Shown piece after piece: positions 50,553 to 60,082 of a stretch of DNA of 64,000 bases (its first letter is position 1; the number at the start of each line of letters is the position of its first letter). The notes beneath the pieces are model-generated. The model had not been told where the DNA came from. It did not search any database and was given only the letters and a program-made list of their open reading frames with translations. Origin of the DNA: Candidatus Yaniella excrementigallinarum. Lineage in GTDB: Bacteria; Actinomycetota; Actinomycetes; Actinomycetales; Micrococcaceae. The translations under genes and the position numbers were made by a program. The stretch is taken from assembly GCA_019113675.1 (NCBI GenBank), contig DXHA01000010.1, forward strand, positions 1 through 64,000. The letters run 5' to 3'.

Positions 50553-51386
50553 ATGTACGCCAAGCACGCCAGTAAACTCACTCATCAATTATTGGACTCT
50601 GTTCCAGTCGATTTGGCGGCGCAGCTCCAATCCTTTGATTGGAGCCAAGCTAAAATTATCGAGCGAGGCAAAGACCATATTATTTTGATTGCAGGGCATT
50701 TAGCCGTTGCGCGATTATCACGGTTTGACGACCCCGACTTGGCGCGAAAAGTGCGCTTACTTAAACAGCTTCGTCTCCCCTGGCATGTACCCACTCCCCT
50801 GTCTCATGTAGATCAAGGGGTGCTGCAGCGCTACATTCCCGGGACTGCCCATCCACACAATTCAGGTGACGTCGCAACACTGTCCCATGTCGTAGAAGTT
50901 CTAGAGAATTATGATACTGCCGGACTGGCCCTGGCAGACCCATTTGCTCAGCGCGGCAGGTTCACCGAGGATATGTTAACCCGGCTGGATACGGTAGTAG
51001 AAAATAAGATGGCCCGTGCTATTGCCGAGCATGTCCACGGGTGGACTGACGACGGTATTGGCGCTGGGCTAGTACACGGCGACCTAGCAGGCCATAATAT
51101 GCATTGGGTAGATGGCCAGCTGATTGGCATCCTCGATTGGGATTACGCTGCGCTATGGGACACAGCATTGAACGCGACCTACCTAAGCCTCTGGCACGGT
51201 GTCCCCTTAGACGATATTAGCGCAACGCCCCATCGGGCTCGAGTATGGTCGGGAGCCCTTGGACTCTACGCCCTAGCCGATGCGCTAACCTGGGATATCT
51301 CACCGGCAGGTTGGCGGCGACTCAATAAGAAGGTTCAGCCGCGTATTCTCAAGGCCTATCACTCTTTGGCTCATTCTGAAGCTTAG
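50553..51386 (+). CDS. Aminoglycoside phosphotransferase-family (APH) kinase-like protein
   Basis: GLVHGDLAGHNMHWVDGQLIGILDWDYAALWD catalytic signature. Confidence 0.82.
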   Translation: MYAKHASKLTHQLLDSVPVDLAAQLQSFDWSQAKIIERGKDHIILIAGHLAVARLSRFDDPDLARKVRLLKQLRLPWHVPTPLSHVDQGVLQRYIPGTAHPHNSGDVATLSHVVEVLENYDTAGLALADPFAQRGRFTEDMLTRLDTVVENKMARAIAEHVHGWTDDGIGAGLVHGDLAGHNMHWVDGQLIGILDWDYAALWDTALNATYLSLWHGVPLDDISATPHRARVWSGALGLYALADALTWDISPAGWRRLNKKVQPRILKAYHSLAHSEA

Positions 51387-52450
51387 CGGAAGCGACTAAC
51401 TGCTAGGTCACGCACCGATTGTGAACTAACCCAATCTGCGGCCGAACCGTCACAAAGCAGATCAGCTCCAAGCCGGGCGAAACCCAAAGAGGTTTGAAAA
51501 CCATACCCAGATTGCCCGGCCAACCAGAAAAACCCTGGGTGCTCATCGAAACCAAGCACTGGAACACCATCAGATGACTCGGTGCGCAATCCCGTCCAAG
51601 AGCTACGCACTCCGGTGATATTTAACGTAGTATCGGCATGGATTTGGTCAATCATGGCATCAATATCTGAACGATGCGGTTGTGCATCCTCGGCAATTGA
51701 CGGCACGGAGTCCTGTGGTGAGGCCAAAATAGCCGATGAATCCTCGTACCGATAATAATATCCACCGATTTTCATTACCATGCAACGATCCGGTGCGATC
51801 GGAGTATCAGTTTCTAAAACTGCCGCGGTGCGGCGCAACGGTACAAGTCCTAGCGGGGCAATACCGAAAAGTTCGGCCACTGGGTCAGCCCATGCGCCTG
51901 CGGCATTGACCACAACCGATGCAGCACATTTACCCTGAGGTGTTCTGACCTGCCAGAGACCATCACTAAAGTGTGCATCGATTACAGGTTCGGCAAGCCG
52001 AATCGTCAGGTTTGGTGCATCTTCAATGAGCCAGTCAAGCATTGCTGACGCATCAATTCGCAGTGAACGGTCGTCCAAGGAACCGGCGGTAAATCGTTGT
52101 GGGCGCAGTTCGCTAACGGTGGCATGCAGAGTATGAAAGTCCTGTCGAAGCTGGCCCGGGAAGGCTTCAGCCTCGACTTCTTCGTCTGTTCCAACCATCA
52201 TGAACGAAGACGGCCACACTACGGGTTGGGCAAGTTCTTGCTGTTGGCGCTGAATCATGCCCACCGTAATATCGGTCAGTTCCCGTACAGCAGCCGGGCC
52301 ATACCCAAGCACCAATTGTTGGGCTGACCGGCCAGAGGTGTGATAGGCCAGCTGATCCTCGGCTTCTAGAAGGGTCACGGACTGTCCACGTTGGGACAGC
52401 TCCCTACCCAGCGATATCCCGGCAATACCGCCACCAATAATAAGAATCAC
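51383..52450 (-). CDS. FAD-dependent oxidoreductase of the DAO/D-arginine dehydrogenase type
   Basis: MILIIGGGIAGISLGRELSQRGQSVTLLEAE; VVNAAGAWADPVAELFGI; WLAGQSGYGFQTSLGFARLGADLL. Confidence 0.88.
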   Translation of the reverse strand: MILIIGGGIAGISLGRELSQRGQSVTLLEAEDQLAYHTSGRSAQQLVLGYGPAAVRELTDITVGMIQRQQQELAQPVVWPSSFMMVGTDEEVEAEAFPGQLRQDFHTLHATVSELRPQRFTAGSLDDRSLRIDASAMLDWLIEDAPNLTIRLAEPVIDAHFSDGLWQVRTPQGKCAASVVVNAAGAWADPVAELFGIAPLGLVPLRRTAAVLETDTPIAPDRCMVMKIGGYYYRYEDSSAILASPQDSVPSIAEDAQPHRSDIDAMIDQIHADTTLNITGVRSSWTGLRTESSDGVPVLGFDEHPGFFWLAGQSGYGFQTSLGFARLGADLLCDGSAADWVSSQSVRDLAVSRFR

Positions 52451-52546: not shown

Positions 52547-54019
52547 TTAGCCAATCTTCTCTAGGATGATTTCTCTTACGCGACCGGCATCTGCTTGGCC
52601 TTTTGTCGCTTTCATAACCGGACCAATCAACGCGCCAACTGCTTTCATGTGGCCACCTTTAATCCGTTCGACGACATCGGGGTTGGCTGCCATGGCATCT
52701 TCTACTGCCGTCGTCAGTGCTCCTTCATCGGAAACTACCGCTAGCGAACGTGCTTGGACAACTTCACTTGGACGGCCTTCCCCCTCAGCAATGTGTCCGA
52801 CGACTTGGCGTGCGATCTTGTCGTTGATGGTCTTGTCTGCAATCAGCGATTCAAGTTCCACCACGTCAGCCGGTGTGACGCCCAGGGCTTCAGGTGCGAC
52901 CCCCTTCTCATTGGCGATACGTGCGATCTCGCCCATCCACCATTTGCGAGCAGCTTCTGGAGTGGCTCCAGCGCTTACGGTGGCTTCGATTTCATCAAGT
53001 AGCCCGGCCGCAACGACGTCACGAAATTCGGTTTCACTATAGGGCCACTGCTGACGTAACCGATGGCGCCGTTGAAGCGGGTTTTCTGGCAGTTCGGCGC
53101 GCAAACGCTCTATCCAGGCCTCGTCGGTGACTACGGGCACTAGGTCCGGGTCCGGGAAGTAACGATAGTCATCGGCATCGGATTTTGGTCGGCCTGAGCG
53201 TGTCGAACGTGCCTCTTCATCCCAATGTCGTGTCTCTTGGGTGATCGTATCGCCAGCATCGAGTACTTTGGCTTGGCGGATAATTTCAGATTCCACGGCT
53301 GCAGCTACAGCACGCGTGGAGTTTACGTTTTTGGTTTCGGTACGTGTGCCGAAAGCTTGTGCACCAATGGGCATCAGCGAGACGTTGGCATCGCAACGAA
53401 TATTACCGCGTTCCATGCGGGCATCTGAGACGCCCAATGCTTTGACGATATCTCGTATAGTTGCCAAATAGGCACGCGCTAATTCCGGTGCTCGCTCTCC
53501 AGCACCGGTGATAGGCCGGGATACGATTTCTACTAGCGGTACACCTGCACGGTTGTAATCCACCAGTGAAGCCGAAGCATCGTGGATGCGTCCAGTTGAG
53601 CCAATGTGGGTGAGTTTTCCGGCGTCTTCTTCCAGGTGGGCTCGTTCAATTTCGACCCGGAAAATTTCACCATCATCAAGTTCCACATCTACATATCCGT
53701 CGTAGGCGATAGCTGGTTCAGCCTGCGAGGTTTGATAGTTTTTACCTAGATCTGGGTAAAAATATTGTTTACGTGAAAACCGCGATTCTGGCGCAATCGT
53801 ACAATTCAACGCCAATCCTAGTTTGATACCGTACTCGATACCGGTGGCATTTATCGCCGGTAATGTGCCTGGCATACCGAGATCGGACGCGGTGACATTG
53901 GAGTTAGGCTGGTCCCCAAAAGCGTTGGTCGCGGTAGAAAACATCTTGGTAGCGGTGTTGAGTTCTACGTGAACCTCAAAACCGAGGACGGGTTCATAAT
54001 TTTGCAATACGGATTTCAT
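52547..54019 (-). CDS. gatB: Asp-tRNA(Asn)/Glu-tRNA(Gln) amidotransferase subunit B
   Basis: YEPVLGFEVHVELNT; VEIERAHLEEDAGKLTHIG; VDYNRAGVPLVEIVSRP; DYRYFPDPDL; MKATKGQADAGRVREIILE. Confidence 0.95.
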   Translation of the reverse strand: MKSVLQNYEPVLGFEVHVELNTATKMFSTATNAFGDQPNSNVTASDLGMPGTLPAINATGIEYGIKLGLALNCTIAPESRFSRKQYFYPDLGKNYQTSQAEPAIAYDGYVDVELDDGEIFRVEIERAHLEEDAGKLTHIGSTGRIHDASASLVDYNRAGVPLVEIVSRPITGAGERAPELARAYLATIRDIVKALGVSDARMERGNIRCDANVSLMPIGAQAFGTRTETKNVNSTRAVAAAVESEIIRQAKVLDAGDTITQETRHWDEEARSTRSGRPKSDADDYRYFPDPDLVPVVTDEAWIERLRAELPENPLQRRHRLRQQWPYSETEFRDVVAAGLLDEIEATVSAGATPEAARKWWMGEIARIANEKGVAPEALGVTPADVVELESLIADKTINDKIARQVVGHIAEGEGRPSEVVQARSLAVVSDEGALTTAVEDAMAANPDVVERIKGGHMKAVGALIGPVMKATKGQADAGRVREIILEKIG

Positions 54020-55290
54020 TTTGTTGCTCCTGCCGTGGTTTCAACGACGGCGCTGATGCGGTAAACCAGTTCGTCTGCGTAAGTAGGTGCACAGATATGC
54101 ATACCTGCCACACTGGCAGCAGGCAGGCCGGCCAGCGATGCACCGACTCCCGGGTTGGTCGAGTCGTATTCTTCGCCCTGTTCAAGGGTTGCCGGCACAG
54201 CAATGGCATCTACGGTTTCAAAGGCTGTTTTGTAGTCGTTGATGATTTCGGTACGAACTTTTTGCGCCGGGAAGAAATGGGTATTGATCGTGCCGGCTGA
54301 CAATAGGTGGGTGCCGATAATAATGCGGCGTTTTGTCGCATACCCAAACCCGGCGCCACGTGAGGCAATAATGACGTCTTCAACGGTTGCGCCGTCTGGA
54401 GTTACCCGGTTTCCGAACCGAATGCCATCAAATTTGGCTAGGTTCGCAGAAAATTCTGCGGCACCAATAATATGAGCAGCCTGGCGAGCCTGTGTCAGCG
54501 ACTCAAGGCTAACCTGCGTGGTTTGTACACCGGCAGATTGTAGTGCGGTGACACCGTTTTGGTACTGCACCCAAGCGTCGTCGGAAACATCGGCTGGCTG
54601 GGAAAGGATGGTCCCAACGGTTAGCCCAGAGATCTCAGTTGAGTTACCAAAATCCCAGTCATGGTCCAAGCTAGTGGGATCAAGCTCATCAGGGCCCAAC
54701 AAGATCTGATGAAGAGCTAAGACATCATCGGTTGTACGGCCAATTGGGGTGACGGTATCCATAGACGACACTGCCGCAACCACACCGTACCGTGAAATAG
54801 CGCCATAGGTTGGTTTGACTGCTACTACACCGGTTTGAGCGGCAATATGTCGGGCGGTGCCGGCAGTATCGGATACAACAGCAAATGGGGCTTGGCGGTC
54901 AGCGACAGCTTGATGGGCACCAGAATCTGGTCCCATACCGAACTCAGAAACTTTGGCCTTGGCCAAAATCGGCAACCCTGCCGCCCGAAGTTTCGATACT
55001 GCAGTCGCAGCATAGGGGGCAATCCAGCCCGCCAGGTAATCAGAGCCAGCGGCAGTTGGCATAGTGTCTGTGACAAAGACATCGGAAATGACCACGGGAA
55101 CACCGGCCATTGGGTGATTATATTGGCCGGCATCAACGGCTTCTGCAACAGCTAGAGCATCCTCAGCGTTGACATAGGCGTAGGCGTCGTCGCCGGCATT
55201 CAAGTGTGCCTGGAGTAACTGCACGGCAGTCGTTTCACCAGCCCGCAGTTTTGCGGCCATATCTGTGGCGGTAAGTTGTGTGAGCTCCAT
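54016..55290 (-). CDS. gatA: GatA-like protein (amidotransferase subunit A homologue), predicted amidase-inactive
   Basis: Alignable to GatA (MAGVPVVISDVFVT; LPILAKAKVSEFGMG; VKPTYGAISRYGVVAAVSSMDTVTPIGRT; LAKFDGIRFGNRV; YATKRRIIIGTHLLSAG; AQKVRTEI) but lacks the Ser-cisSer-Lys triad; located between gatC and gatB. Confidence 0.85.
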   Translation of the reverse strand: MELTQLTATDMAAKLRAGETTAVQLLQAHLNAGDDAYAYVNAEDALAVAEAVDAGQYNHPMAGVPVVISDVFVTDTMPTAAGSDYLAGWIAPYAATAVSKLRAAGLPILAKAKVSEFGMGPDSGAHQAVADRQAPFAVVSDTAGTARHIAAQTGVVAVKPTYGAISRYGVVAAVSSMDTVTPIGRTTDDVLALHQILLGPDELDPTSLDHDWDFGNSTEISGLTVGTILSQPADVSDDAWVQYQNGVTALQSAGVQTTQVSLESLTQARQAAHIIGAAEFSANLAKFDGIRFGNRVTPDGATVEDVIIASRGAGFGYATKRRIIIGTHLLSAGTINTHFFPAQKVRTEIINDYKTAFETVDAIAVPATLEQGEEYDSTNPGVGASLAGLPAASVAGMHICAPTYADELVYRISAVVETTAGATK

Positions 55291-55578: not shown

Positions 55579-56081
55579 TTAGTTTAAAGGATGGACATAG
55601 ACCAAAAAGGTTTCGAGTCCTTCTTGGTGGTCCACTATGCCGGCGGTGTATAAGTTCCAGTCCCGGTCCGGTGCACGCTGGAATCCCATGGCGTGGTACA
55701 TCGTCTGGGCGGTGGTCATCGATGGCATGGTGGTAATAACTACACCCGTTCGATGCTCGGCGCGGGCAAAATCTATTACGTATTGTACGAGACTGCGGCC
55801 GATACCGTGGCCTTGAAATCCCGGTTCGACAGCCAGCATACGAAATTCCAGTTCGTTGTCGTAGGCTACTTCCGCGGCCTCTGACCCCGGTGGTGCAATG
55901 TTGAGGCTTCCCACGACCTTGCCATCGAGTTCCGCTGCATAGAGGTGCTGCGCACGGCCAGCAATATCGGTTAGCGCTGCCACATAAGGATCGGTTGGAC
56001 CAATATGGCCCGATGACACGTAGGCAGCGTAAGTCAGTTCGCGGATGGCCTGGTAGTCAGTTTCGACCGCGGGTCGGATCC

Positions 56082-56088
<7 letters not shown>
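55579..56088 (-). CDS. GNAT-family N-acetyltransferase
   Basis: EFRMLAVEPGFQGHGIGRSLVQYVIDFA. Confidence 0.85.

Positions 56089-60082
<3,994 letters not shown>

Follow-up and report, generated by a model that had tools for sequence, protein, structure and literature searches.

An intact gatCAB operon in Yaniella whose GatA lacks the amidase catalytic triad, and a possible role for ammonia in tRNA amidation

Can a tRNA-dependent amidotransferase serve a cell when the subunit that should release its ammonia has lost the catalytic residues for doing so? GatCAB has been treated as a glutamine-dependent enzyme, with the glutaminase site a fixed part of it. In the usual series of steps, GatA hydrolyses glutamine, the ammonia travels by a tunnel and GatB amidates the activated aminoacyl-tRNA (PMC4027206). 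The question is raised by a stretch of 64,000 nucleotides (hereafter the window) from the 2.56-Mb genome of Candidatus Yaniella excrementigallinarum, a member of the Micrococcaceae assembled into 99 contigs. Here gatC, gatA and gatB form one operon, with an AAAGGAG ribosome-binding-like site upstream of gatC and gene overlaps of TAATG and ATGA (Table 1), and an earlier note on this DNA had correctly described the operon as intact. The same note proposed that GatA is a pseudo-amidase or scaffold subunit in an otherwise intact operon, a proposal that the analysis supports; GatB is fully conserved in its motifs.

Table 1. Features of the gatCAB region, with positions in the window
Feature	Position	Strand	Evidence or remark
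FAD-dependent (DAO) oxidoreductase	51383..52450	(-)	downstream of gatB
gatB, transamidase/kinase subunit, 490 aa	52547..54019	(-)	NF004013, 792.7 bits (cut-off 653)
gatA-like gene, triad-less GatA, 424 aa	54016..55290	(-)	profile matches and alignment
codon 145 of gatA, Thr replacing the nucleophile Ser	54856..54858	(-)	Thr in 8 of 8 genus copies
codon 69 of gatA, Ser replacing the catalytic Lys	55084..55086	(-)	Ser or Ala in 8 of 8 genus copies
gatC, 88 aa	55290..55556	(-)	TIGR00135, 48.7 bits (cut-off 47.1)
GNAT acetyltransferase	55579..56088	(-)	upstream neighbour of gatCAB, ancestral ligA-gatCAB block
inositol monophosphatase family gene	56082..57149	(-)	ancestral block
ligA (NAD-dependent DNA ligase)	57146..59353	(-)	ancestral block

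The gene order from ligA to gatB (PP2C, ligA, inositol monophosphatase, GNAT, gatC, gatA, gatB) is common to other genera, where the block holds a canonical gatCAB. The linkage to ligA places the triad-less operon at the original gatCAB locus. The DAO oxidoreductase gene also lies downstream of gatB in the sister genus (G024). GatC has a shorter N-terminus than usual, 88 aa as compared to about 101, and three of its otherwise invariant positions are altered.

The GatA reading frame is uninterrupted and GatA-like, as first described; it matches Pfam Amidase at 3.5e-59 and the TIGR00132 gatA model at 255.7 bits, which is below the curated cut-off of 481 for the glutaminase equivalog. An AlphaFold2 model (pLDDT 83.7, pTM 0.86) has its best PDB matches among the GatA subunits of solved GatCAB complexes, with TM scores of 0.84-0.87. 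Thus, the GatA fold and homology are retained in a protein that is not recognized as a glutaminase.

The active site itself has been dismantled. Alignment confirms what had been read from the letters, namely that the catalytic Lys is now Ser69, that the nucleophile is now Thr145 and that the cis-Ser has been removed; the loop that carried it is indeed deleted, but the EFGMG-to-AP stretch is 23 aa shorter and not about 25 as the note had estimated. All three members of the Lys-cisSer-Ser triad are gone in the eight copies known from the genus. A Tyr pair, which we take to bind glutamine on the basis of the S. aureus structure, is also gone from the window GatA; its position corresponds to Tyr322/323 in the E. 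coprophilus canonical reading frame. The Asp that recognizes the glutamine amide (D418 in yeast; PMC4027206) is missing as well, and the Arg that holds the glutamine carboxylate (AQxxR) is kept. This pattern, in which the residues for recognizing glutamine are gone along with the triad and the Arg stays, is common to all eight genus copies. Further pieces are absent near the C-terminus. Overall, GatA keeps 89 of 143 positions that are invariant among canonical GatAs, and the losses are densest in reference residues 121-200, the active-site segment. The loss of the Tyr pair and the Asp escaped the earlier note, as did the fixation of the trait throughout the genus and the additional canonical gatCAB in four congeners.

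The triad-less GatA occurs, at 73-75% identity, in seven of the eight other genomes of the genus (Yaniella/Enteractinococcus), and the remaining genome is 71% complete. The carriers named in GTDB include Yaniella halotolerans DSM 15476, Candidatus Yaniella excrementavium, Yaniella sp. 38_S52, isolate KG10, Enteractinococcus helveticum and E. coprophilus DSM 24083; one carrier genome is a single contig and two belong to type strains. The K/S/S motifs are absent in all eight assemblies, which disposes of the possibility, raised earlier, that resequencing would restore them; an assembly or reading error is rejected, since independent assemblies, those of the two type strains among them, agree. 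In a family-profile survey of 151 Micrococcaceae genomes, the eight copies scored 839-873 bits and the next best protein, a canonical GatA, scored 320; across 397 genomes of the phylum nothing beyond the eight exceeded 294 bits. No other copy of this lineage was found in 80 GTDB relatives, the 151 Micrococcaceae or the 397 phylum genomes, with queries that target this triad-less lineage and do not reach independent triad losses in other lineages. Two matches in these searches (L145 and L150) are partial or divergent, and the patterns did not match every motif in them. The triad-less GatA is a fixed trait of the genus and turned up in no other genus. A search of the literature (openly licensed PubMed Central papers) gave no description of a GatA of this kind.

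GatB, the partner that carries out the amidation, tells a different story from GatA. It keeps 122 of 126 positions that are invariant among 27 canonical GatBs, including E15, H17, E131 and E164, which correspond to the ATP/Mg residues in solved structures; the kinase-like motifs are thus conserved, as the earlier note had claimed, and the NF004013 score is above its cut-off. It has fixed differences from the canonical protein at only three positions (E>D, L>V and K>R), and each of these changes is conservative. Within the genus the median dN/dS is about 0.11 for gatA (0.160/1.46), about 0.04 for gatB of the triad-less operon (0.063/1.62) and about 0.10 for gatC (0.096/1.0), as compared to 0.213/1.59 for the second, canonical GatB of some congeners, with dS near saturation so that all of these figures are rough. 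By these medians the GatB next to the triad-less GatA is more conserved than the second, canonical GatB, and it also changes more slowly than the triad-less GatA beside it. The triad-less gatA is under purifying selection. Relaxed evolution or pseudogenization, offered earlier as an explanation, is not what the comparison of gatA and gatB revealed, and decay of gatA is rejected: the frame is open in all eight genomes and there are no frameshifts.

Is the enzyme needed? GlnRS and AsnRS models gave no match above their curated cut-offs in the nine genus genomes, and the same models were positive in control genomes. The sub-threshold matches in the window genome are GluRS, AspRS and LysRS, and so the suggestion that the lineage had acquired GlnRS or AsnRS is rejected. 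The window genome has tRNA-Gln (CTG, TTG) and tRNA-Asn (GTT), with tRNA-Gln and tRNA-Glu genes located after gltX. The gltX and aspS genes that the earlier note wanted checked turn out to be one GluRS and an AspRS that is, by its sequence, of the non-discriminating type; it carries RRRDHGG and ARPEGSEN, in which the His and Gly are marks of a non-discriminating bacterial AspRS. With no GlnRS or AsnRS, yet with both tRNAs, a GluRS and an AspRS of this type, GatCAB is required, and both Gln-tRNA and Asn-tRNA are expected to come from it.

The number of gatCAB operons displays a more complicated pattern. A GatA above the TIGR00132 cut-off is present in five of the genus genomes (G004-G008) and absent in four (G000-G003). 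These four, which are the window genome, Y. halotolerans (G003) and two more, have only the triad-less operon and exactly one gatB each, adjoining the triad-less GatA. Genomes G004-G007 have, in addition to the triad-less operon, a canonical gatCAB away from the ancestral locus. The idea that a second active gatA lies elsewhere in the window genome was not borne out there, where no other protein exceeds the TIGR00132 cut-off and there is a single gatB, although four sister genomes do have such a gene. Five other amidases of the window genome were examined as well and none is a GatA. The neighbourhood of KG10's canonical operon is intact in Y. halotolerans and the operon itself is absent, which is a clean syntenic gap. 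Hence, the window species, Y. halotolerans and two relatives apparently have no enzyme for Gln-tRNA and Asn-tRNA other than the product of the triad-less operon.

In GatB trees the triad-less copies (100/100) and the canonical second copies (100/97) fall into two clades of their own inside the family. In the triad-less clade a long stem (0.44) leads to short tips, which means that it changed rapidly once and has been strongly conserved since. The gene neighbourhood of the second, canonical operon in KG10 (L185) differs from that in Enteractinococcus plus G006 (L187/L188/L189), and yet the copies form one clade, so this operon has either moved or been re-acquired. A tree of four flanking genes places KG10 inside the single-copy species (93/94); therefore, the canonical operon was probably either lost twice or regained in KG10.

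How might such an enzyme work? Three of the explanations offered at the outset have fallen away, namely that GlnRS or AsnRS was gained, that this genome has another active gatA and that the operon is relaxed; free or donated ammonia is left, by elimination and by precedent. We consider it likely that this is a working GatCAB with a dismantled glutaminase half, which draws its ammonia from a source other than its own GatA, probably as free NH3. Ammonia from outside is the simplest reading because the glutaminase step has no visible catalyst and the GatB step has all of its residues, strictly conserved. We predict that GluRS and the non-discriminating AspRS mischarge tRNA-Gln with Glu and tRNA-Asn with Asp, and that GatB activates the side chain in the normal way, with ATP. 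The nitrogen of the amide would be ammonia from elsewhere than GatA, presumably free cytoplasmic NH3 that enters via the gutted GatA site and the tunnel; GatA would stay as a structural subunit or scaffold, possibly an open conduit. In Enteractinococcus and KG10 the triad-less enzyme coexists with a canonical glutamine-dependent copy. What the genomes themselves display is the loss of the active site, the retention of GatB, purifying selection and the absence of alternatives, and from these we infer the activity, ammonia as the donor and its route of entry.

An AmtB-type ammonium transporter is present in seven of the genus genomes and was not detected in the other two, Y. halotolerans (100% complete) and G002 (88% complete). 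This gives no support for a high internal ammonia concentration in these two, which is a point against the ammonia reading, but overall the survey of transporters says little either way.

The strongest rival, which we nevertheless regard as improbable, is that the glutaminase has been split off, with a separate amidase docking on the complex and feeding it ammonia from glutamine in trans. The obvious candidate is a K-S-S-intact amidase (C32 in G000, 485 aa) that is common to G000, G001 and G003 at 81-82% identity, all of which are without a canonical GatA, and that is in none of G004-G007; only two other family genomes of the 101 searched have a match, at 40-45%. This protein aligns with the GatA model over its full length (338-357 bits), but it scores equally for AtzE, is below both cut-offs and is without GatA's glutamine-recognition Tyr pair and Asp. 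Furthermore, it was not found in G002 (88% complete), and in all three genomes that have it a CitMHS/ArsB-type permease gene follows (L184:935-3653 in G000; also L182 and L183), which suggests a catabolic role.

Two other alternatives strike us as decidedly less probable than a split glutaminase. If the triad-less GatCAB had been repurposed, for example for tRNA binding or regulation, with Gln-tRNA and Asn-tRNA made by an unrecognized route, one could understand why it is kept even beside a canonical gatCAB in G004-G007; however, its GatB has conserved the kinase/transamidase residues, and four genomes with tRNA-Gln and tRNA-Asn have no other GatCAB, GlnRS or AsnRS. About as improbable is a remnant site that is still a glutaminase, by a changed mechanism with Thr145 as nucleophile. 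Thr145 and the D-T-A-G ahead of it are invariant in all eight copies and the carboxylate-holding Arg is kept, but there is no Lys or cis-Ser for a proton relay, the loop is deleted, and the amide-reading Asp and the Tyr pair are gone. Finally, three of the single-operon genomes (G000, G001 and G002) are fragmented into 99-160 contigs, and a canonical gatCAB might have been missed in their gaps or the whole pattern might be an assembly artefact. We think this very unlikely: the Y. halotolerans genome is 100% complete in 6 contigs and has KG10's insertion site intact and empty, both a canonical gatA and a second gatB would have to be missing from four genomes, and eight assemblies, including the one that is a single contig, have the same triad-less GatA.

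The ammonia-fed enzyme that we favour has relatives and analogues. It is a GatCAB by its GatB, its operon and its fold, and its GatA lacks what defines the glutaminase. As in the canonical GatCABs (PDB 2df4, 3h0l and 4wj3), the genes run gatC-gatA-gatB at the family's ligA-linked locus, GatB has the active-site residues and GatA has the fold; unlike them, the window GatA is without the Lys, cis-Ser, Ser nucleophile and most glutamine-binding residues, and it is about 75-90 aa shorter than its canonical relatives. The second GatCAB of G004-G007 belongs to the same family and genus and its GatA has the full K-S-S triad, but it is off the ancestral locus, has a faster-evolving GatB and is absent from G000-G003. 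Yeast mitochondrial GatFAB transamidates with NH4Cl, and one truncation of the N-terminal domain of GatF lowers its glutaminase activity and raises its use of NH4Cl (PMC4027206); that case resembles ours in keeping ammonia-dependent transamidation when the glutaminase is impaired, except that it is a laboratory mutant with an intact triad. NAD synthetases that lack a glutaminase domain work with ammonia in vivo (PMC3376133), so that a similar choice between Gln and NH3 exists in nature. The single-domain enzymes are a functional analogy, a synthetase that takes ammonia directly, in an unrelated protein that is missing the domain, whereas our enzyme retains its glutaminase subunit in a dead form.

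In conclusion, we lean slightly towards a broader view, in which several bacteria have a natural, obligately ammonia-dependent tRNA amidotransferase as their sole source of Gln-tRNA and Asn-tRNA, with the dead GatA as a conduit or scaffold, and in which related species have an NH3-type and a Gln-type pair, like AsnA and AsnB but acting on tRNA. As half of the eight species retain a glutamine-dependent copy, there may be niches in which the triad-less enzyme is not enough. The ammonia reading can be tested now in type strains, namely Y. halotolerans DSM 15476 and E. coprophilus DSM 24083. If it is true, the complex would offer a glutaminase-free system for the study of the ammonia tunnel and of subunit coupling, translation fidelity would be linked directly to the supply of ammonia, and protein synthesis could run on ammonia-fed amidation, a new way of making Gln- and Asn-charged tRNAs.
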